DNA of 64,000 nt, from NCBI GenBank assembly GCA_021083345.1, contig JAJGRE010000004.1, positions 1 to 64,000 of the forward strand. The letters run 5' to 3'. Below are positions 5,211-34,337 of this stretch, piece after piece. Positions within the stretch are counted from its first letter, which is position 1; each line of letters starts with the position of its first letter. Under the pieces are notes generated by a model that was not told where the DNA came from, did not search any database, and was given only the letters and a program-made list of their open reading frames with translations. Source of the stretch: Calditrichales bacterium MX18-03 (lineage in GTDB: Bacteria > Bacillota > Clostridia > Lutisporales > Lutisporaceae). Both the position numbers and the translations under genes were made by a program.

Positions 5211-5996
5211 TTATTTCTCAGCTTCGATGATATAGGATGCGACGTAGTCCCCTAGGTTCCGGCCCTGCATCCATGAATTGACGATTTCCCTGCTGTTTTC
5301 CTTGGGATTCATCCGGATGTTCTTAAATCCCGCATCGGAAAGCATTCTCCTCAGGTCTTCCACATGCTCGGCTCCGCCTATACAACCGGCTATCATGTCC
5401 AGATCCTGCTTCATGTGCGGCGGCATCACCCTTGTGGCTACGACATCGGAAATGGATAGTCTGCCGCCGGGCTTCAGCACCCGGTATGCATCCCTGAAAA
5501 CCTGCTGCTTCTCTGGTGAAAGGTTTATGACGCAGTTGGATATGATGACGTCCACTGATCCATCCGGCACAGGCAGGTGTTCTATCTCTCCCAGCCTGAA
5601 ATCCACATTGTCATAACCGCTCTTATAGGCATTCTCTCTTGCCAGCTTCACCATGTCAGGCGTCATATCCACGCCTAACACATAACCGGTCTTGCCTACC
5701 CGTTTCCTGGCAAGAAAGCAGTCAAATCCACCGCCGCTGCCAAGATCCAATACGACTTCACCTTCTTTTAGTCCTGCAATGGCGATGGGATTTCCACAGC
5801 CCAAGCCCATATTTGCGCCTTCCGGCACGCCTTCCAGATCATTTTGGGAATAGCCGATACTGGCAGATGCACCCTTCACATCCGTCTGCCCCCCGCAGCA
5901 ATTGCTGCCGCTGCAGCAGCAGCCTCCCGACCCTTTTGCTGCGACAGCCGAATAGTTTTTGCGTACATAGTCTCTGATTCTTTCCTTATTATTCAA
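5211..5996 (-). CDS. arsM: arsenite S-adenosylmethionine methyltransferase
   Basis: ArsM methylates As(III) to mono- and dimethylated forms using S-adenosylmethionine. The 261-residue protein has a Cys-rich N-terminal segment (GGCCCSGSNCCGG) common in bacterial ArsM, the SAM-binding LDLGSGGGFDCF, and conserved cysteines in SNCVINL and AGCIGGAE. I chose a TTG start with GGAGG eight bases upstream because it gives the family's usual length; the longer open frame would overlap the preceding sigma-factor gene by about 60 bases. It lies downstream of the SigZ-like gene and ends at a strong bidirectional terminator. Confidence 0.9.
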   Translation of the reverse strand: MNNKERIRDYVRKNYSAVAAKGSGGCCCSGSNCCGGQTDVKGASASIGYSQNDLEGVPEGANMGLGCGNPIAIAGLKEGEVVLDLGSGGGFDCFLARKRVGKTGYVLGVDMTPDMVKLARENAYKSGYDNVDFRLGEIEHLPVPDGSVDVIISNCVINLSPEKQQVFRDAYRVLKPGGRLSISDVVATRVMPPHMKQDLDMIAGCIGGAEHVEDLRRMLSDAGFKNIRMNPKENSREIVNSWMQGRNLGDYVASYIIEAEK

Positions 5997-6060
5997 ATTT
6001 AGCAACCTCCAATAGTATCTTTTATTGGCTTCACTAATAAAGACGCAGTAAAAAGAAAAA

Positions 6061-6079
6061 GGACGCAAGTTTTGCGCCC
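6061..6079 (-). terminator. terminator after the SigZ-like gene
   Basis: On the minus strand GGGCGCAA and TTGCGTCC can form an eight-pair stem with one G-U pair, followed by TTTTTCTTTTT. It lies six bases after the sigma-factor stop codon and would make arsM expression depend on readthrough or on its own promoter. Confidence 0.65.
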
Positions 6080-6084
6080 ATTCT

Positions 6085-6648
6085 TTAGCAATATTTACAA
6101 TCGCATGCTTTATGCTTGTAGTCAATGATGTTGCCCATTCGATCAAATTCCAGCTGGCAGCAGTTCAGCAGCATTTCCTTCAGTTTCTCCCTTGCACGCT
6201 GTACCCTCGACTTTGCTCCCGATATGGAAATCCCCAGCCTTTCACTTAACTCCTTTTGAGTCAGGTTATGGAACTCCGTCAGCAAGATGGCTTCCCTATA
6301 TTTCTCCGGCAGATTGTTTATCATGGATTTCAAGCATGCAGCGATCTCTCCGTTAAAGATCAGGTCTTCATCGGTTTCAGCTGCCATATCCTCCGGAAAC
6401 TCGCCGGAAACAGCTGCATTTCCATATTTCCTATAATAGTCATTGATGGCATTCCGGGTGATCCGGTAGATCCACCCATGGATCCTGTTTTCATCCTTCA
6501 GGCTTTCAATGCTGCTGTGAATCTTTAAATAAACATCCTGGAGAATATCCTCAGTGTCCTGCTCATTTGAAACACGTCTTTTTATGAAATTTCTAAGCGG
6601 CATGCTGAACTCTTCCCAAACACTGCCTATACACACCGACAACTGCAA
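6085..6648 (-). CDS. sigZ: ECF sigma factor, SigZ-like, with a Cys-rich tail
   Basis: Region 2 (FIKRRVSNEQDTEDILQDVYLKI) and region 4 (LPEKYREAILLTEF, LTQKELSERLGISISGAKSR) are both clear. The C-terminal tail carries the FDRMGNIIDY stretch that I associate with the SigZ subgroup. About 187 residues from the TTG used here; nearby TTG and GTG codons are also possible, since the GGGTGA site allows several. The tail holds six cysteines (CC near 163 and CDCKYC at the end), a feature that could bind metal or arsenite. There is no anti-sigma gene next to it. Its neighbours are arsM and the redox operon, so a role in an arsenic or thiol-stress response is likely but inferred. Confidence 0.85.
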   Translation of the reverse strand: MQLSVCIGSVWEEFSMPLRNFIKRRVSNEQDTEDILQDVYLKIHSSIESLKDENRIHGWIYRITRNAINDYYRKYGNAAVSGEFPEDMAAETDEDLIFNGEIAACLKSMINNLPEKYREAILLTEFHNLTQKELSERLGISISGAKSRVQRAREKLKEMLLNCCQLEFDRMGNIIDYKHKACDCKYC

Positions 6649-6719: not shown

Positions 6720-6740
6720 ATGCCGTTTGGGAAACGGCAT
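6720..6740 (-). terminator. hairpin at the end of the redox operon
   Basis: ATGCCGTTT and AAACGGCAT form a nine-bp stem with a three-base loop, beginning at the stop codon of the mini-thioredoxin gene. The following T tract is short, so termination may be partial. A TTGACATATACT stretch just beyond it may be part of the sigZ promoter. Confidence 0.5.
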
Positions 6741-6967
6741 TACAGGTATTTTTTTACCTCTTCCACCGTCAATACTTTTCCCATGGACTTAACCTGCTCA
6801 TCCACAACCAAAGCCGGTGTCTTCATGACGCCGTATTTCATAATGTCCTTGAAATCTTCTACCTTTTCAACGGCTGCATCAATGCCAAGCTGCCTGACAG
6901 CTTCCTTTGCATTTGCTTCAAGCTTCTTGCAATTCGCGCAGCCTGTTCCTAGAATTTTTATTACCAT
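6740..6967 (-). CDS. small thioredoxin-fold protein with CANC active site
   Basis: A 75-residue protein of the redox-active disulfide protein 2 / MTH895 type: short thioredoxin fold with the active site GTGCANCKKL near residue 10 and the cis-proline loop MKTPALVVD. Proteins of this type are often encoded beside DUF318/ArsP-like permeases and probably act as cytoplasmic thiol-disulfide carriers. It is the last gene of the operon that starts with such a permease, 25 bases after the ProC-like gene. No signal peptide. Confidence 0.85.
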   Translation of the reverse strand: MVIKILGTGCANCKKLEANAKEAVRQLGIDAAVEKVEDFKDIMKYGVMKTPALVVDEQVKSMGKVLTVEEVKKYL

Positions 6968-6992: not shown

Positions 6993-7772
6993 TTAGCCTT
7001 TCAATTTCTTGTATAGCCCTTCCAAATTGCTTCTATACATATTCCTGATATTGGTTTCCTCATTACCTAAAGGCTTTACAGGAACCAGATCCATTACTTC
7101 CATAGGCTTAAGGCCTGCTTCCGACATTGCCTGCACAGCACCTGAAGCCATCTTTGCCACAGCTTCTGCCGACGCATGCTCAGACAATCCGAAGGACTTA
7201 CCGATCTCCTGAAGCTCATAAAACTGGAACCATAAATAAGTAGGCCCCATTGCACTAAGTATTGCATATGCCTCAAGATTTTCTTCAGGCACCTCAGGAC
7301 ATTCTCCTAAAACAGACAGCATGCTGAGAACGGCTTCTCTTTCCTCACCGGATAAAGATTCAGAAAAGGCAGCCGGGTTATACCCCGCTCCGATAACGGA
7401 TGGTGCGTTCGGTATCATCCGAATTATCTTATTGTGGCCTTTCAACCCCTCAGATAGCTTTGCCATGCTGTATTTTGGCGCTAGCGAAACTACAATCGCT
7501 TCTGTTCCTAAGCTTGGAGCGATCTCATCCAACAAATCCTTCATGACCGACGGATGGACCGCAATAAATACGATATCCTTTTCAGCTGCACTCTTGTTCC
7601 CTCCCAACTCGACTTTTACGCTGGGAAACGCTTTGTAAATTTTATCAAGCATATCGGAATTGACGTCACTGACTACGATTTCATCCGGGAGCTTATTCGC
7701 CTTTTTTAGACCCGCCAATATAATCCCTGTAACTCTTCCCCCACCGACAAAGCCTATTGATCTTCTACACAT
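6993..7772 (-). CDS. ProC-like NAD(P)-dependent oxidoreductase
   Basis: 259 residues with an N-terminal Rossmann motif (IGFVGGGRVTGIILAGL) and a pyrroline-5-carboxylate-reductase-type C-terminal helical domain. It differs from true ProC: the usual SGSGPAYVF-like substrate loop reads SAMGPTYLWFQF here, so proline synthesis is doubtful. It sits between the ferredoxin gene and the mini-thioredoxin gene in the arsenic-linked redox operon, 31 bases after the ferredoxin. The start follows a G-rich GGGGGG site. I infer an NAD(P)H-dependent reductase working with the redox proteins around it; the substrate is unknown. Confidence 0.7.
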   Translation of the reverse strand: MCRRSIGFVGGGRVTGIILAGLKKANKLPDEIVVSDVNSDMLDKIYKAFPSVKVELGGNKSAAEKDIVFIAVHPSVMKDLLDEIAPSLGTEAIVVSLAPKYSMAKLSEGLKGHNKIIRMIPNAPSVIGAGYNPAAFSESLSGEEREAVLSMLSVLGECPEVPEENLEAYAILSAMGPTYLWFQFYELQEIGKSFGLSEHASAEAVAKMASGAVQAMSEAGLKPMEVMDLVPVKPLGNEETNIRNMYRSNLEGLYKKLKG

Positions 7773-7803: not shown

Positions 7804-8046
7804 CTAGCAGCAGCCACTGCAGCTGCAGCCGCAATCACCGGCTTGACCTGCATCTCCGACATACTCGATGGAGTCTGTGGGACAGAGCTTCTGACAGCCC
7901 CTGCAGCCGTCAATGCAGCCTTCCGGATAAATGACCTTCGGCTTGCTTTCTTTTTTGTCGTAGACGCCGTGCGAGCACTTTTCAACACAAGCCCCACATT
8001 CAATACAGGTTTCATAATTGATGACCGGGTACCATTTCTTTGACAT
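7804..8046 (-). CDS. 2[4Fe-4S] ferredoxin-type protein with Cys-rich tail
   Basis: About 80 residues with two cluster motifs (CIECGACVEKC and CRGCQKLCP) and a tail GDCGCSCSGCC rich in cysteine. The start is the ATG seven bases after AGGAGG; the open frame continues upstream only into the previous gene. It should carry electrons in the cytoplasm. The repeated CXC and CC in the tail could bind arsenite or metal, which is inferred from composition. It follows the ccdA-like gene by 20 bases. Confidence 0.85.
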   Translation of the reverse strand: MSKKWYPVINYETCIECGACVEKCSHGVYDKKESKPKVIYPEGCIDGCRGCQKLCPTDSIEYVGDAGQAGDCGCSCSGCC

Positions 8047-8066
8047 TTTCATACCTCCTTTTATTC

Positions 8067-8729
8067 TTATGCTTTCCACACAAAGTAGAATGCCAGTAGA
8101 ACCAGAATGATTCCGCCTATGGTTTCGATTTTATGCTGATATTTCTCAAGCTGCTTCACATTCTTTAAGAGACCGGTAAAGGTACCGACCAACAAAATCG
8201 GTATACTGCGCCCAATCGCATATGTAAACATCAGCGTCATCCCGTAGACTGCGCTGCCCTTTGCAGCGGAATAAGCCAACACGGATGCAGTAATGGGCAG
8301 CGTGCAAGGTGAGGCAGCAATGCCAAAGGGTATCCCCAATATGAATGCGCCTATGGCACCACTGCCGCTTTTGGGTGACAGCCTCTTCATATCGAAGCCG
8401 GTATTGAAGTCAAAGATCTTGAGCATCCACAAGCCCATGACGCCAAGAATGGCCGCTACCAAGTAGTTCAAGAGCTTTGTGTTCTGCAATATCTTACCGA
8501 TGGCACCAGCGAAGGCACCCAAAATGGATAAAGTGAAGGCAATTCCCAATACAAAGAACAATGATAATATGAAACCCTTCATTCTGGAATTTTCCCGGTA
8601 ACCGCTCACATAGCCCACAACAAGAACAATCGTTGGCAGTGTACACGGGCTTAAGCCGCCTAGAAATCCGGTAGAAAAAATGATTGCCAGGGTTGTCAGC
8701 AGGTTTGCATCCAGATCCAAGCCCGTCAT
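8067..8729 (-). CDS. ccdA: CcdA/DsbD-type transmembrane thiol-electron carrier
   Basis: CcdA-family membrane protein (220 residues, about six helices) that moves reducing equivalents from cytoplasmic thioredoxin to extracytoplasmic thioredoxin-like proteins. The two redox cysteines lie in matching repeats, GGLSPCTLP near residue 29 and AASPCTLP in the second half. Its start codon overlaps the stop of the preceding thioredoxin-like gene (ATGA), so the two are translationally coupled. The partner substrates are probably the two anchored thioredoxin-like proteins encoded just upstream. No cytochrome c genes are nearby, so the role is not cytochrome maturation. Confidence 0.88.
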   Translation of the reverse strand: MTGLDLDANLLTTLAIIFSTGFLGGLSPCTLPTIVLVVGYVSGYRENSRMKGFILSLFFVLGIAFTLSILGAFAGAIGKILQNTKLLNYLVAAILGVMGLWMLKIFDFNTGFDMKRLSPKSGSGAIGAFILGIPFGIAASPCTLPITASVLAYSAAKGSAVYGMTLMFTYAIGRSIPILLVGTFTGLLKNVKQLEKYQHKIETIGGIILVLLAFYFVWKA

Positions 8730-9196
8730 TTCTTCACCATCCCGTCAATAATTTCATTGACATACTTCACGTCAATCACACCGTTGACTGTCTTCAAGAG
8801 CTCTCCTTCGGTATCAAGCAGTAAAACCGTAGGGTAAATATTGATCTTGTAATCCGCTGTCATTTCATAGACTGCCTTTGCTTGTTCTTCCGTCAGCTTT
8901 GTGGTATCAATATACAGTGTACCGGCTCGGCTTTTGTTCTCTTCCAGAAGCTGCATGGCTCTCTTTCTGTATTCTGAATAGTACTCAACAGAGCTGGCAC
9001 AGCATTCGGATTCATAGTACAAAACGATAATCGACGGTTTGCCGTCTTTTTTCAGCTGCTCCAGCATTTCTTTGACATTCATTTCCGCATCAAGCACAAC
9101 TGCCTCAACAGACTGGGGCTTTAAAACACTTTTTACCGCGAGCAGCATCATGACAGCCAGCACTATAGCTGCGACTCTGTATAGCTTTCTGTTCAA
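8726..9196 (-). CDS. membrane-anchored thioredoxin-like protein with CC motif
   Basis: 156 residues: one N-terminal membrane segment or signal anchor (about 7-22), then a thioredoxin-like domain outside the membrane. The redox site reads ESECCAS with cysteines 65 and 66, an adjacent CC pair in place of CxxC, and the cis-proline loop is IYPTVLLL. It is a paralogue of the next gene upstream: same length, same anchor (MNRK/MNRN, VKSVLKP/VKSMVKP), same motif position. The neighbour has UGA where this one has Cys66. Stop overlaps the ccdA start. It probably exchanges electrons with CcdA. Confidence 0.85.
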   Translation of the reverse strand: MNRKLYRVAAIVLAVMMLLAVKSVLKPQSVEAVVLDAEMNVKEMLEQLKKDGKPSIIVLYYESECCASSVEYYSEYRKRAMQLLEENKSRAGTLYIDTTKLTEEQAKAVYEMTADYKINIYPTVLLLDTEGELLKTVNGVIDVKYVNEIIDGMVKK

Positions 9197-9225: not shown

Positions 9226-9693
9226 TTATTGAACGATTTCCTTGATTGCTTTCTCTAACTCAGCATCATCAAACTTCCCTGCAATCACTTTGAAGGGCTC
9301 TCCTTTCCGGTTCAATAAAAGAACGGAGGGAAGATCCGTCACGTTGTTCTCACTTGCGATTTCGATAATGACATTCATTTCAGCCTTATTGGGTGTAGCT
9401 GCGTTTATAAAAAGAGTTGTCAATTGGTCTTTATGCCGCTCCATAAGCAGTCTGGCCTTAGCATTGTATTCTTCCAAGAATACTCGGGTAGACTCTCAGC
9501 AGTCACCATCATAGGAGAAAATGATCATTGCCGGTATGCCTGCATTCTTCAGCTCCATATATTGAACTTCCAAATCTGACTTTTGCATGGCTGCTGTCTT
9601 GTTATCGGCAGGCTTTACCATGGATTTCACGGAAATAAGGATAATCAGCACTGCAATAACGCCGATTACCAAAAAAAGCTTATTTCTATTCAC
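9226..9693 (-). CDS. thioredoxin-like selenoprotein with Cys-Sec site (UGA at codon 66)
   Basis: The frame has one internal TGA (9496-9498), directly after the Cys65 codon; ignoring it gives 155 residues, against 156 for the paralogue downstream. The two proteins align throughout: N-terminal anchor MNRNKLFLVIG, SVKSMVKP, then YDGDC-U-ES against YESEC-C-AS, then matching EEYNAKARLL / SEYRKRAMQLL and a cis-proline loop LPSVLLLN. UGA falls exactly on Cys66 of the paralogue. A hairpin of bacterial SECIS type begins 12 bases after the UGA. No good ribosome binding site precedes the second half, so two separate genes are unlikely. I read it as a CU redox-site selenoprotein facing outward and served by CcdA. 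A true nonsense mutation is the alternative. Confidence 0.85.
9466..9495 (-). other. SECIS-like hairpin after the selenocysteine UGA
   Basis: In the mRNA the 12 bases after UGA are followed by GUAUUCU-UGGA-AGAAUAC, a seven-bp perfect stem with a four-base loop that has G in its second position. The UGA-to-loop distance is 19 bases. Both features match the general rules for bacterial SECIS elements. The stem is AU-rich, so it is modest in stability. Confidence 0.65.
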
Positions 9694-9753: not shown

Positions 9754-10062
9754 CTATTTGTCAAGCTTCTCGTTAAGTTCCCTGATGCTTTTGCGCACCA
9801 TTTCTTCTGCCAGATTAACGACTTGAACGATATCCGGGTTCTTGATGTAGTAGTTGATCCGCATGCCGTCTTTCTCGCAGTATACGATTCCTGCATCCCT
9901 AAGAATCTTAAGATGCTGGGACAGGTTGGACTGACTGAACTCCACATCTTCGCTCATTTCACAAACACAGTACATTTTCTCCGACAGCTTTTTGATAATC
10001 TTTAGCCGGATCGGGTGGGCCAGTGCTTTGAAAATGTTGACTTCCAAGTTTTCTATATCCAT
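9754..10062 (-). CDS. arsR: ArsR-family repressor of the permease/redox operon
   Basis: 102 residues with a winged helix-turn-helix (about 8-85; FSQSNLSQHLKILRDAGIV). The helix-3 stretch MYCVCEMSE has the CVC pair that binds As(III) in ArsR of the ELCVC type, so release from DNA by trivalent arsenic is expected. The start is the second of two ATG codons, six bases after AGGAGG. A half copy of the 59-bp inverted-repeat element lies just before its ribosome binding site. It follows the permease gene and probably binds the palindrome over that operon's promoter. Confidence 0.88.
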   Translation of the reverse strand: MDIENLEVNIFKALAHPIRLKIIKKLSEKMYCVCEMSEDVEFSQSNLSQHLKILRDAGIVYCEKDGMRINYYIKNPDIVQVVNLAEEMVRKSIRELNEKLDK

Positions 10063-10082
10063 CATTACCCTCCTATCAATGT

Positions 10083-10100
10083 AAAGGGACACACCTTGCT
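10083..10100 (-). repeat. half copy of the 59-bp inverted-repeat element
   Basis: AAAGGGACACACCTTGCT matches one end of the complete copies at 39227-39285 and 56978-57036. The match stops at the permease stop codon. As in the full copies, this end points toward a ribosome binding site, here that of arsR. Confidence 0.75.
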
Positions 10101-11115
10101 AAGTAAGTATGAGTGAGAATGCGTTGAACAGGTACCCGATTAGAATGATGCCAAAGGATACCAGCCCTATGAACAAACCCAGCAGCTTCGGCTTTACCAC
10201 CTTGCTCAGCATAATCATGGACGGCAGTGAAAGCGCCGTTACGGACATCATGAAAGCCAGGACCGTACCAACCCCGACACCCTTCCCAAATAACGCTTCT
10301 GCTATCGGTATTGTCCCGAATATGTCCGCATACATAGGTATGCCAACAGCCGCTGCAAGTATGACTGAGAAAGGATTATCGTTCCCTATGACGGTCTCAA
10401 CAACCGATTGCGGAATCCAGTTATGGATCGCAGCACCTATTCCTACTCCGATCAGTATATACAGCCACACCCTGTGGATTATTTCCTTCACCTGGTTCTT
10501 AGAATAGTCTATTCGCTCCCTGCGTGTCATATCGCTGATCTCTACGTCAACACGTTCTATCTCCATGACATAGCCTTCAACATATTTCTCCATTTTAAGC
10601 TTATCTATTATGGTACCGCCCGCTACCGCCAGGATCAATCCTACCACCACATAAGCCAGGGCAATCTTGAATCCGAAAAAGGACATCAGGATCAGAAACG
10701 AGGCCAGATCCACCAGAGGTGAAGATATTAAGAAGGAGAAAGTAACCCCCAGCGGAAGTCCTGCGGATGTAAAGCCTATGAACAAGGGTATGCTGGAGCA
10801 GCTGCAAAATGGTGTGACCGTTCCCAGTAATGCGCCGAACAGGTTCCCCCTGATTCCCCTGATGCCGCCAAGTATTTTCCTGGTCCTTTCCGGCGGGAAA
10901 TAACTCTGGATGTAGGATATGGCAAAAATCAGCACCGACAGCAAGATAAAGATCTTTATGGTATCGTATACAAAAAAGTGAATACTGCCGCCAAGACGCT
11001 CTCTTACCGGTAAGCCCAGCAAATTCTCCACAAGATAGCGAACAAGCTCCGAAAGCCAGGTCATTTTCAGCAGCTGATCGTTGATCCAACCAAACAGTTG
11101 CGCAAAGGTATTCAT
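10099..11115 (-). CDS. arsP: ArsP/DUF318-type permease (probable organoarsenical efflux)
   Basis: 338 residues, eight or more membrane helices in two halves separated by a charged cytoplasmic loop (about 170-205). It has the family signature TPFCSCSSIPLFIGF near residue 100 and the second-half counterpart VGIPMYADIFGTIPI. ArsP exports trivalent methyl- and aromatic arsenicals; other DUF318/YraQ members have unknown cargo. Neighbouring arsR, thiol-redox genes and the nearby arsM favour an arsenical substrate. It is the first gene of an operon running to the mini-thioredoxin gene, behind a good sigma-A promoter with an operator palindrome. Confidence 0.82.
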   Translation of the reverse strand: MNTFAQLFGWINDQLLKMTWLSELVRYLVENLLGLPVRERLGGSIHFFVYDTIKIFILLSVLIFAISYIQSYFPPERTRKILGGIRGIRGNLFGALLGTVTPFCSCSSIPLFIGFTSAGLPLGVTFSFLISSPLVDLASFLILMSFFGFKIALAYVVVGLILAVAGGTIIDKLKMEKYVEGYVMEIERVDVEISDMTRRERIDYSKNQVKEIIHRVWLYILIGVGIGAAIHNWIPQSVVETVIGNDNPFSVILAAAVGIPMYADIFGTIPIAEALFGKGVGVGTVLAFMMSVTALSLPSMIMLSKVVKPKLLGLFIGLVSFGIILIGYLFNAFSLILT

Positions 11116-18175: not shown

Positions 18176-19066
18176 TTAGCCGAATATCTCATTAGCCGCC
18201 CGCTTCAATACTTCAAGTCCTTTGATCTCCGTCTCATACATCGGTACGGTGACCAGTTCAGCATCCTTGAACCGGTCTCTGATCTCGTCGATATATTTAA
18301 GCTGCATGGCCCTTCTCTTCATGAAGAAGGGCGTTGCCGCCTGCTCCTCCGGAATAACCAGGTTTGCAACTGCCAGGTGCGTCCTGATGCCTAATGTACC
18401 CAGCTCTTCCGATGCCCTGTGGGCTTCGACTATGGGCGTCTTTTCGGGATACATGACAAAGGCAAAAGTGGATATCTCCGGATCCTTCATCCTGTCAATG
18501 ACCCGGTCAAACCGCTCCTTCTGGCGCTTGTCTTCCTCGCTGATCTCCGTTGCCACGCCGGCCTTAAGCTCCAGCTGCCTGCTCCAATCCATGGGCAGCT
18601 CCAGAAGGCGCAGCGTATGCCCGGTGGGTGCTGTATCAAATACGATCACCTCGTATTCATCCTCGGAAGCGAAGGCTACGAATTTCTGAAAAGCAGCCAT
18701 CTCTTCCGTACAAGGGGAATTCAGCTCCTCCTCCATGGCCATGACGGTTTCAGAATTGAACTTTTTCCTTGCATCCTCCAAAATATGGTGCTTATATTCC
18801 TCTGTGGCTCTTTTTTGATCGATCTTAGCAGCATAAAGGTTTGGAATCTCCAGTATAGCCGAAGCCTCATCCGTCACAGGCTTTTCCAGAACATTGCCGA
18901 TGTGGGCCGCCGGGTCGGTGGTCAGGAGCAGCGTCCTGTATCCCGCCGAAGCCGTCTTGACAGCGATGATGCAGGCCATGGAGGTCTTCCCTACGCCGCC
19001 TTTTCCTGAGAAGAAAATATGCCTGCTGCTTTTTCCGGGATAGATAAGTTTTTCAATACTATTCAT
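18176..19066 (-). CDS. arsA: arsenical pump ATPase ArsA, second half-size gene
   Basis: 296 residues, equivalent to the A2 half of the double ArsA ATPase. Nucleotide-site motifs are FSGKGGVGKTSMA, TTDPAAHIG and DTAPTGHTLRLL; LNSPCTEEM carries the cysteine that corresponds to the As(III)-binding residue. It energises arsenite efflux by Acr3. The start overlaps the stop of the first arsA gene by eight bases, with AAGGAAGTGA as binding site; the frame extends further upstream but without a better start. The pair of half genes replaces the fused form known from plasmid R773. Confidence 0.9.
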   Translation of the reverse strand: MNSIEKLIYPGKSSRHIFFSGKGGVGKTSMACIIAVKTASAGYRTLLLTTDPAAHIGNVLEKPVTDEASAILEIPNLYAAKIDQKRATEEYKHHILEDARKKFNSETVMAMEEELNSPCTEEMAAFQKFVAFASEDEYEVIVFDTAPTGHTLRLLELPMDWSRQLELKAGVATEISEEDKRQKERFDRVIDRMKDPEISTFAFVMYPEKTPIVEAHRASEELGTLGIRTHLAVANLVIPEEQAATPFFMKRRAMQLKYIDEIRDRFKDAELVTVPMYETEIKGLEVLKRAANEIFG

Positions 19067-19946
19067 CGCCGTCACTTCCTTCAAATAGAACCTTACCCAC
19101 CTGTCTGAACATGTCAATCCCCTTCAGCTCGGTGTCAAAAAGCGGCATTTCTTTCATGGGTGTACCTGCAAATATTTCCTGTGCTTTGCTCACATACCCC
19201 TTCTGCATCTGAAGCCGTTGCCTGAAAAAAGCATTGACAGCCTCCGCTTCAGGTATCAGCCCGTTTATGATGATCCGGTCGGTGGTGATGCCCAGCCTTT
19301 GAAGCTCCTTGGCGGAACGCGCTGTTTCATCCAGGGAGGTCTGCTCCGGCTGCATGACGAAGATGAATTGCGTCTGTTCCCGGTTCCTCAGCATATTGAC
19401 AGCCTGGTCATATTTCTTTTTGCTGTCCTGAATCAGGGCAACAGGCCCCATGCAGGTCTGGCCGCTGCCCTTTGCACTTTCTTCTATGTGTCTGCTCCAG
19501 TCCACCGGCAGCTCCAGCAAGCGGATGGTATGGCCTGTGGGTGCGGTATCGAATACGACGATATCATATTCATCCTGCTGCATGAAGTCGATGAATTTGT
19601 CAAAGGAAGCCATCTCCTCGGTACAGGGTCCGCTGAGCTGCTCCTCCGCTATCTTCACCAGCTCATCATCGAAAAGATCCCTCATAGGTGCCAGCGCTCT
19701 TTCTTTATATTCCGTCGTAGCGGCATCCGGATCGATCTCCATGGCATCCAGGTTTTCCATCCCATTGATTTTTGTAACACGGTGCCCGATCTGCTGCTCG
19801 AAGACATCGGATAAATTAGCTGCCGGATCTGTCGTCACAATCAGGGTTCTGCAGCCCTTATCCGCATACTGAACAGCCGTGGTGCAGGCCATAGAGGTTT
19901 TCCCTACGCCGCCCTTACCGGAGAAAAAGATGAACCTAGTTCCCAT
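19059..19946 (-). CDS. arsA: arsenical pump ATPase ArsA, first half-size gene
   Basis: 295 residues, equivalent to the A1 half. It has FSGKGGVGKTSMA, TTDPAANLSD, DTAPTGHTIRLL and LSGPCTEEM, with a further cysteine in GQTCMGP near the place of the third arsenite ligand. About 45 percent of its residues appear to match the second half gene by eye. Its start overlaps the end of arsD by 11 bases. The two products probably form a heterodimer, or two homodimers, that takes As(III) from ArsD and drives Acr3. Confidence 0.9.
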   Translation of the reverse strand: MGTRFIFFSGKGGVGKTSMACTTAVQYADKGCRTLIVTTDPAANLSDVFEQQIGHRVTKINGMENLDAMEIDPDAATTEYKERALAPMRDLFDDELVKIAEEQLSGPCTEEMASFDKFIDFMQQDEYDIVVFDTAPTGHTIRLLELPVDWSRHIEESAKGSGQTCMGPVALIQDSKKKYDQAVNMLRNREQTQFIFVMQPEQTSLDETARSAKELQRLGITTDRIIINGLIPEAEAVNAFFRQRLQMQKGYVSKAQEIFAGTPMKEMPLFDTELKGIDMFRQVGKVLFEGSDGDE

Positions 19947-20259
19947 TGATAATTTCTCCTATCCTGGCTTCCAGCTCCTCCAGCGTGGGATATCGATATG
20001 CTTTCAGCACCTTGCCGTTAACGGCGGTGATGGGAAGTGACTTTCTACTTTCCGTTTTCACCAGGCCGTATACCTCCGGATTTTCACGGAATTTGGCCGG
20101 CTGCTGCGAGATCTGATAGCGCTCGATTTCAATACCGGCATATTTGTTTTTCAGGGCTTGAATTGCTTCACTGATCCGGACCAGGCTCTCATCCACACTG
20201 GGTCCGCAGATTCCTGTAGAGCAGCACATGGGTGGCTCAAATAGTTCAACTTTTATCAT
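19936..20259 (-). CDS. arsD: arsenic metallochaperone ArsD
   Basis: 107 residues with a thioredoxin-like fold. The essential Cys12-Cys13 pair and Cys18 are present (PPMCCSTGICGP), which bind As(III) and pass it to ArsA. It is translationally coupled on both sides: its start overlaps the small upstream gene by four bases and its end overlaps arsA. The vicinal CC pairs near the C-terminus of R773 ArsD are absent, as in most chromosomal forms. Confidence 0.92.
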   Translation of the reverse strand: MIKVELFEPPMCCSTGICGPSVDESLVRISEAIQALKNKYAGIEIERYQISQQPAKFRENPEVYGLVKTESRKSLPITAVNGKVLKAYRYPTLEELEARIGEIINGN

Positions 20260-33663: not shown

Positions 33664-33829
33664 CTTCATACCTCCAATGCACCCGGTTTTGTGCATTATC
33701 TACTGGTCTTCCACTTGATGCATTAGCCTAAGTATACCAGTTTGACGGTTGTCTTTCAATTATCACAATACTATCAACGATCCGTATGGACTTATTGCAG
33801 GCATCGCGTTTGCTGCTGCCGGGATAAGC

Positions 33830-33864
33830 AAAAGGTACTATCGCTGAACAGGATAGTACCTTTT
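33830..33864 (-). terminator. terminator after the decayed modC
   Basis: AAAAGGTACTATC and GATAGTACCTTTT form a 13-bp stem with a nine-base loop, with a run of T on either strand. It lies 65 bases after the modC remnant. Confidence 0.75.
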
Positions 33865-33928
33865 GTGTGTCTTCAGCAGAAAAGCCGCCAAAGCCGGAGC
33901 AGTCACCGGTCTTTGGCGCATCAGGCTC

Positions 33929-34337
33929 TCACAGCCTGATGATGCGGTCTCCCAGCAGCCTGGCTTCATCATCATTATGGGTAACCAGAACGACATCGAT
34001 ATCCCATATTTTTTTAAAATCCAGAAACTCTTTGTGTACCGTCTGCCTGGTACTGCTGTCCAAGGCCGAAAAGGGCTCATCCAAAAGCAGCAGCTGAGGC
34101 TCTGTGGCCAAAGCCCGTGCCAAAGCCACCCGCTGTTTTTCGCCTCCCGAGATCCTGCCCGGCAGCTTGCCCTCCAGATGCTTGATGCCAAACACCTGCT
34201 CAGGCGGTCCGCATACCCGAAATCCTTCATGCCTCTGCTGCGGATGCACCCTGGATGACAAGCACTTCCCGGTCTGTCTGGAAACTGATGCGCAGGTCGG
34301 CATATTGAAGCTTCTTAAATACATCTACATGGATCAT
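33929..34337 (-). pseudogene. modC: decayed molybdate ABC transporter ATPase gene
   Basis: The gene begins normally ([20 protein letters not shown]) but breaks inside Walker A: VIQGAS is followed by AAEA and a stop at 34227-34229, where family members continue with GKST. In another frame the second half is well kept: [21 protein letters not shown], the signature RVALARALA, and Walker [13 protein letters not shown], ending at GDRIIRL. About 70 codons including the P-loop lysine and Q-loop are gone, so the product cannot hydrolyse ATP. Confidence 0.8.

Follow-up and report, generated by a model that had tools for sequence, protein, structure and literature searches.

Several described systems resemble the locus analysed here. 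A thioredoxin, CcdA and redox-active disulfide protein 2 were reported together in ars operons in 2010 (PMC2963123); CcdA was discussed there as a possible transmembrane electron carrier, and the trio was tied to ArsC. The C-terminal (gamma) domain of DsbD and the ResA partner of CcdA are outward-facing thioredoxin folds, each paired with a DsbD-type membrane protein. Among selenoproteins, a 2026 review tabulates 119 prokaryotic families or subfamilies (PMC13188914, Table 1), including thiol:disulfide interchange selenoproteins of PF13098 with a UxxC motif. It also covers the SAO/Tso systems of Haft and co-workers, in which several selenoproteins occur together, handling of metals or metalloids is implicated and some proteins (SaoL, SaoC and SaoB) have CU motifs. 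Lastly, our operon shares with the ArsEFG nitro-arsenical system a thioredoxin of the ArsE family and a protein of the DsbD type.

The locus lies in a window of 64,000 nucleotides, by which we mean the whole stretch of DNA analysed. Like the 2010 trio, it combines the same three gene types within an ars operon; in contrast, the passages of that article compared here name no CC or CU site, its main text contains no word beginning with 'seleno', and there was no ArsC among the window proteins scanned. The thioredoxin-like protein of interest differs from DsbD gamma and ResA in being a separate, apparently anchored polypeptide with a C-[CU]-x-x-T site instead of CxxC. The SAO/Tso systems are made of other protein families, and window proteins score far below cut-off with the models for TsoB and SaoT: the TsoB model (NF045694, a rhodanese/DsbD fusion) gave 24 bits for the Cys paralogue and 97 for CcdA against a cut-off of 805 and was not among the matches of the Sec protein, and membership of SaoT was rejected likewise. 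The ArsEFG assignment was also discarded, as CcdA reached 50 bits versus 200 for the ArsG model, and the ArsF model was matched by neither paralogue at an E-value of 0.1 (ten window proteins scanned).

A thioredoxin-like gene with an in-frame UGA

The features of the locus are listed in Table 1. The window gene at 9226-9693 starts with GTG, with GGAGGTGAT a few bases 5' of it, and ends with TAA. Its translation reads VNRNK...YDGDC-stop-ESTR...EIVQ-stop, and the sole internal stop, a TGA at 9498-9496, directly follows Cys65, as the original prediction had it. Beyond this codon the frame stays open for 89 codons, with seven and eight stops in the other two frames, and 48 of 20,000 base shuffles left this stretch free of stops. 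However, the window holds 40 TGA-bridged frames, this one included, with about 45 codons or more on each side. An open frame beyond a TGA is thus not rare by itself, and it is homology that carries the evidence. A frame at 33728-34324 on the minus strand looks by eye like an ABC ATPase. It contains a TGA at 33931 that is followed by 66 open codons; this TGA is probably just the end of the gene.

Homology does run on past the UGA, both in the adjacent paralogue and in more distant relatives. The paralogue has Cys at the position of the UGA and is 30% identical over 144 aligned columns (BLASTP E-value 2e-24), which bears out the proposed kinship of the two genes. Its own TGA stop overlaps the start of ccdA, so TGA acts as a normal stop in this genome, and genome-wide recoding of TGA was ruled out. 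A separate downstream gene starting from TTG (ORF 9226-9477) was likewise rejected: it would split the thioredoxin fold, and no relative inspected has such a split.

Table 1. Features of the ars locus and of the putative selenoprotein gene (window coordinates)
Position	Strand	Feature	Basis
9226..9693	-	Putative selenoprotein gene; thioredoxin-fold protein with predicted membrane anchor, 155 aa, C65-U66-x-x-T69 site	Translation, paralogue, predicted model
9496..9498	-	Proposed selenocysteine codon, in-frame UGA, codon 66	Translation; UGA/Cys exchange at this column
9466..9483	-	Hairpin GUAUUCU-UGGA-AGAAUAC, a SECIS candidate, spanning nt 13-30 past the UGA	Hairpin scoring; weak alone
8726..9196	-	Cys-Cys paralogue, 156 aa, anchored, thioredoxin-like; TGA stop overlaps ccdA start	Translation, BLASTP
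8067..8729	-	CcdA/DsbD-type transmembrane protein, two PCTLP motifs	DsbD_TM, E 2.6e-24
9754..10092	-	ArsR-type repressor	HTH_metalloreg, above cut-off
10099..11115	-	ArsP_1-type permease	PF03773, E 7e-70
7804..8079	-	2x[4Fe-4S] ferredoxin, Cys-rich tail ending in CC	Domain scan
6993..7772	-	Pyrroline-5-carboxylate-reductase-like (P5C-reductase-like) dehydrogenase inside the ars operon	Domain scan
6740..6967	-	CANC thioredoxin of the ArsE/MTH895 type (redox-active disulfide protein 2), cytosolic	TIGR00412, above cut-off
5211..6146	-	Arsenite methyltransferase ArsM	NF008823, above cut-off

On the minus strand, the genes follow each other in the order ArsP-type permease, ArsR, the window gene, the Cys-Cys paralogue, CcdA, ferredoxin, P5C-reductase-like protein and ArsE-type thioredoxin. 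ArsM comes beyond the latter, behind an ORF whose sequence alone suggests a sigma factor. Further upstream, at 18176-20259, are two tandem genes for single-domain ArsA-type ATPases (one of which was scanned), near acr3. Next to them is an arsD-like gene, named from its sequence and motif. The ferredoxin shows weak similarity, below cut-off, to the mercury-methylation ferredoxin HgcB.

The genes needed for insertion of selenocysteine were all found in the host: selA (634 bits) and selB (372 bits) form an adjacent pair with selD (390 bits) beside it, and a tRNA-Sec was detected with 70 bits, to which ARAGORN assigns the anticodon tca. Judged on this gene content, the host should decode selenocysteine. 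The host selD gene (C7:1184060-1184980) itself contains an in-frame TGA, and SelD is thus probably a selenoprotein.

Search for relatives

Searches of 148 genomes and of 22 members of the order, the host genome included, yielded no homologue outside that genome at the limits set. A scan of genome contigs with the single protein returned 79 pattern stretches, none of them a relative, and tblastn of plasmids and searches of viral contigs gave no lead. A two-row profile retrieved one clear homologue and three weak partial matches (E-values of 7e-5 to 2e-4) from 391 genomes of the class. The family obtained by growing this profile is called group A. Two profile rounds each covered 398 genomes of the phylum, largely or wholly the same ones, and their counts are thus not additive.

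Group A comprises 22 scorable genes, the window pair included, with a fragment devoid of the motif (L083) scored nowhere. Eight of them, in six genomes, have UGA at the column of codon 66, and 14, in as many genomes, have a Cys codon. The original prediction would have been undermined if the frame were generally interrupted elsewhere in homologues; such damage was found in three of the 22, namely L049 (Cys, with an in-frame TAA in the linker), L076 (UGA, with a frameshift near the end) and L085 (UGA, truncated at its 5' end). The last two both come from G820, a poor assembly that is 72% complete and has selA in pieces. With these two set aside, six UGA genes in five genomes are otherwise intact. 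Desulforamulus aeronauticus DSM 10349 carries two copies of the UGA form, and Desulfoscipio geothermicus DSM 3669 carries a Cys form (L049). In D. aeronauticus, the ars/Sec-thioredoxin block occurs twice, in opposite orientations, on one contig of 110 kb (L089 and L090).

Group B, a sister family, consists of anchored thioredoxins whose motif is UxxC or CxxC and which are often encoded near ccdA. A selA gene was detected above cut-off in 35 of the 36 tested genomes with group A or group B members, including the genomes of the scored UGA genes; the exception, G336, has a Cys gene. Most Cys homologues also occur in selA-bearing genomes, and machinery and Sec hardly co-vary.

Exchange of Cys and Sec at codon 66

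We built trees with column 66 masked. The tree of 21 rows (without L067) needs two Sec/Cys changes, and its starred branches force two. The window gene joins the Cys genes of G336 and G879 in it with weak support (81/49), and its own paralogue (L044) is on a long branch. In a tree of 18 rows, from which L044, L076 and L085 were also removed, the window gene groups with the same two genes (98/94). The remaining UGA genes fall into one clade (97/95) next to the Cys gene L049, and two changes are again forced. The exchange of UGA and Cys looked for at this codon was thus found: Cys and Sec appear to have been exchanged at least twice, and the trees place Cys genes between the UGA of the window gene and those of the Desulforamulus type.

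For four Desulforamulus-type UGA genes (six pairs), the dN/dS ratios are 0.11-0.23 after the UGA compared with 0.10-0.22 before it, which points to purifying selection on the part beyond the UGA. No close UGA orthologue of the window gene was found, so these ratios apply to the Desulforamulus-type genes.

Candidate SECIS hairpins

A published model of the bacterial SECIS has a G within the first two loop positions, a loop of 3-9 nt, a spacing of 16-37 nt and an energy of -7.5 kcal/mol or lower (PMC13188914). For each gene, our script selected the best simple hairpin that had a G among the first two bases of its loop and whose loop lay 16-37 nt past the codon; the family comparison used a cut-off of -4.6 kcal/mol or better. 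The small hairpin with a UGGA loop that had been proposed for the window gene does exist, its loop 19 nt after the UGA, and it fits the model in loop, G and spacing. The bare hairpin, at -4.6 kcal/mol, misses the -7.5 limit, which is reached only when lower stems within the 50-nt fold are included; the resulting -10.2 kcal/mol is itself unexceptional (z -1.12). The hairpin is ordinary for this window: across 50 long ORFs, an equal or better one lies behind 2355 of 17,539 codons, among them 28 of the 220 Cys codons, and comparison with synonymous recoding gives p=0.058. Taken alone, it is weak evidence.

The family comparison covered 36 genes of groups A and B, 18 with UGA and 18 with Cys; L081 and L082 (motif unmatched by the pattern), L067 (protein identical to that of L047), L057, L062, L041, L042 and L043 were left out. 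A G-loop hairpin at the cut-off was present in all 18 UGA genes versus one of the Cys genes (group A, seven of seven UGA and one of 12 Cys genes; group B, 11 of 11 and none of six), in counts that are not independent, as the UGA genes are mutually related. The lone Cys exception, L077 of group A, has a hairpin of -12.0 kcal/mol, which exceeds in strength those found in UGA genes of its group. Among the six group A UGA genes other than the window gene, five have hairpins at -8.5 or lower, and that of L076 is at -6.8. The stem-loop ACC-GGUC-GGU is found at the same place in six group A UGA genes. The group B UGA genes tested were L051, L053, L054, L055, L056, L058, L063, L064, L065, L068 and L084; nine of these 11 have a GAGCC...GGCUC stem.

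Taken together, the host machinery, the UGA/Cys exchange and the hairpins of the family support the reading of UGA66 as selenocysteine, which is very probably inserted at this codon.

Predicted fold and active site

An AlphaFold2 model based on the 18-row alignment (mean pLDDT of 86) has an N-terminal helix, predicted with low to middling confidence, followed by a thioredoxin domain. The top Foldseek match of the model is the C-terminal domain of DsbD (E-value 5e-6), and VIA-align Z scores reach 12.9 against thioredoxins. The N-terminal stretch of the protein is hydrophobic in sequence. Five relatives (L078-L082) have, as judged by eye against the lipobox consensus, lipoprotein-like signals ending in Cys, which argues for a domain outside the cytoplasm. 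The product is thus predicted to be an N-terminally anchored thioredoxin fold on the outer face of the membrane.

Four positions never vary in the 18 aligned rows: a Pro, a Tyr, Cys65 and position 66, which is either Cys or Sec. Thr69, Asp97 and Gly139 are present in at least 90% of the rows. The CxxC redox motif is absent, and the site reads C-[C/U]-x-x-T. When the two groups were compared with hhalign (99.6% probability), U66 fell on the U of the UxxC motif of group B and T69 on its resolving Cys. Two alignments with PDB sequences differ in placing the first Cys of CxxC at Cys65 or at residue 66; because they disagree, the register is uncertain by one residue.

Genetic neighbourhoods of the relatives

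We compared the regions around the relatives, which span 6 to 18 kb. With the window excluded, ccdA adjoins the group A gene in 19 of 20 regions, the exception being that of the truncated L085. One genome contributes two copies to these 20 regions, and a further two regions are near-identical, leaving about 18 independent ones. For group B, ccdA was found in 12 of 19 regions; these include that of L126, whose gene is unresolved, and ccdA was sought with the window CcdA only, so divergent ones may be missed. Core ars genes, counted without arsR and by our own score limits, are present in 17 of 20 group A regions versus five of 19 for group B.

Proposed function and alternative explanations

Our best explanation, which very probably holds, is that the window gene codes for a selenoprotein with UGA66 read as Sec and that this protein is the partner of CcdA in a split DsbD. 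UGA66 would be decoded by the SelABCD proteins of the host, and the anchored domain would form the split DsbD with the adjacent CcdA. Partnership with CcdA on the outer face is, taken by itself, likely. A cytosolic thioredoxin, for which the ArsE-like CANC protein encoded in the operon is the probable candidate, would feed electrons to the two membrane cysteines of CcdA and through them to the outer domain. Sec66 would occupy the position of the attacking Cys in the CxxC of the sister family, with Thr in place of the resolving Cys, and the vicinal Cys65 may take over resolution by forming a Cys-Sec selenenylsulfide. The GCUG tail of mammalian thioredoxin reductase forms such a vicinal selenenylsulfide. 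By this analogy, the Cys-Sec pair in place of CxxC suggests that a vicinal selenenylsulfide may be the resting form.

The substrate would most likely be an arsenical, or a thiol blocked by arsenic or oxidised, outside the cytoplasm. To our knowledge, no protein of this family has been characterised biochemically with arsenic. We lean towards an arsenic-related substrate, with reduction likelier than pure binding. We tentatively put forward a further possibility, an arsenic redox device that depends on selenium and faces outward from the membrane, in which the CcdA-driven Cys-Sec domain reduces or transfers arsenicals outside the cytoplasm and, in this genome, the Cys-Cys paralogue acts as a relay.

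The alternative that survives best, though we find it rather unlikely, is a metalloid-binding chaperone, in which the Cys-Sec pair would bind extracellular As(III) or methylarsenite and CcdA would merely keep the pair reduced. ArsD binds As(III) inside the cell with a CC pair. The invariance of the vicinal C-C/U without a resolving Cys and the denser ars linkage of group A compared with the CxxC/UxxC sister family speak for such a role, and two of the 18 members touch the NCBIfam model of ArsD-related vicinal-Cys proteins (best E-value 0.003; one scored 17 bits against a cut-off of 90). However, homology with ArsD was rejected, as the comparison with an ArsD profile, itself of two rows only, gave a probability of 3.6% and left the CC pairs unaligned. 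In addition, the listed fold matches are redox domains of the thioredoxin and DsbD types, and the constant presence of ccdA suggests turnover rather than static binding.

Repair of oxidants by a Sec-dependent protein of the peroxidase or peroxiredoxin type, with the ars linkage reflecting shared stress only, is improbable. The U66-x-x-T69 spacing does resemble the UxxT listed for GPX-like proteins (PMC13188914, Table 1), but Pfam mainly detects Thioredoxin_2 (14 of 18 members at an E-value of 0.01) and AhpC-TSA in one of 18, and the association with ars genes is strong.

Least probable of all is an ordinary Cys66 gene, dead or mis-sequenced, in which TGC or TGT became TGA by a single base change: the nearest homologues (its own paralogue and those of G336 and G879) do carry Cys, the window hairpin is insignificant by itself and three family genes are damaged, yet just one in 54 of the possible single-base nonsense changes (one in nine counting TGA only) hits codon 66, no damage is seen in the remaining frame, the ribosome-binding site or the operon, and an independent UGA occurs at the same column in other genomes, with selection downstream, in addition to a host equipped for Sec.

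Relation to catalogued families and significance

The 2026 review does record CU motifs in other families, but its Table 1 has no row for a thioredoxin that is linked to CcdA and has a C-U-x-x-T site (PMC13188914). Its PF13098 UxxC type is possibly our group B, which is made of anchored thioredoxin folds often encoded near CcdA and has Sec at the homologous column; it differs from group A by the presence of the resolving Cys and by its weaker ars linkage. A survey of 2006 gives eight selenoproteins for Desulfotomaculum reducens, with no such protein by name (PMC1794560). For eight group A members scored against NCBIfam cut-offs, the window pair and six others, no family came near its cut-off, and the best NCBIfam E-value across 18 members was 6.8e-7. 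No description of group A was found in titles and abstract openings among the literature matches listed, and a prior mention is possible. The suggestion that a CC/CU pair in tandem with ccdA in an ars operon is no standard system stands in part: the gene trio has been known since 2010 (PMC2963123), and the tandem of CC and CU forms was found only in this genome among those searched. According to the sources compared, the Sec-bearing subfamily is apparently new within known kinds, namely thioredoxin-fold selenoproteins and CcdA-linked outer thioredoxins.

The finding extends the known selenoproteins by a subfamily that is apparently uncatalogued, is tied to ars operons and has an unusual vicinal Cys-Sec thioredoxin site. 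Such genes look broken in annotations that treat the UGA as a stop. As Cys/Cys and Cys/Sec forms are closely related and even lie side by side in one operon, they would allow a direct test of the benefit of selenium to a metalloid-linked thiol enzyme.
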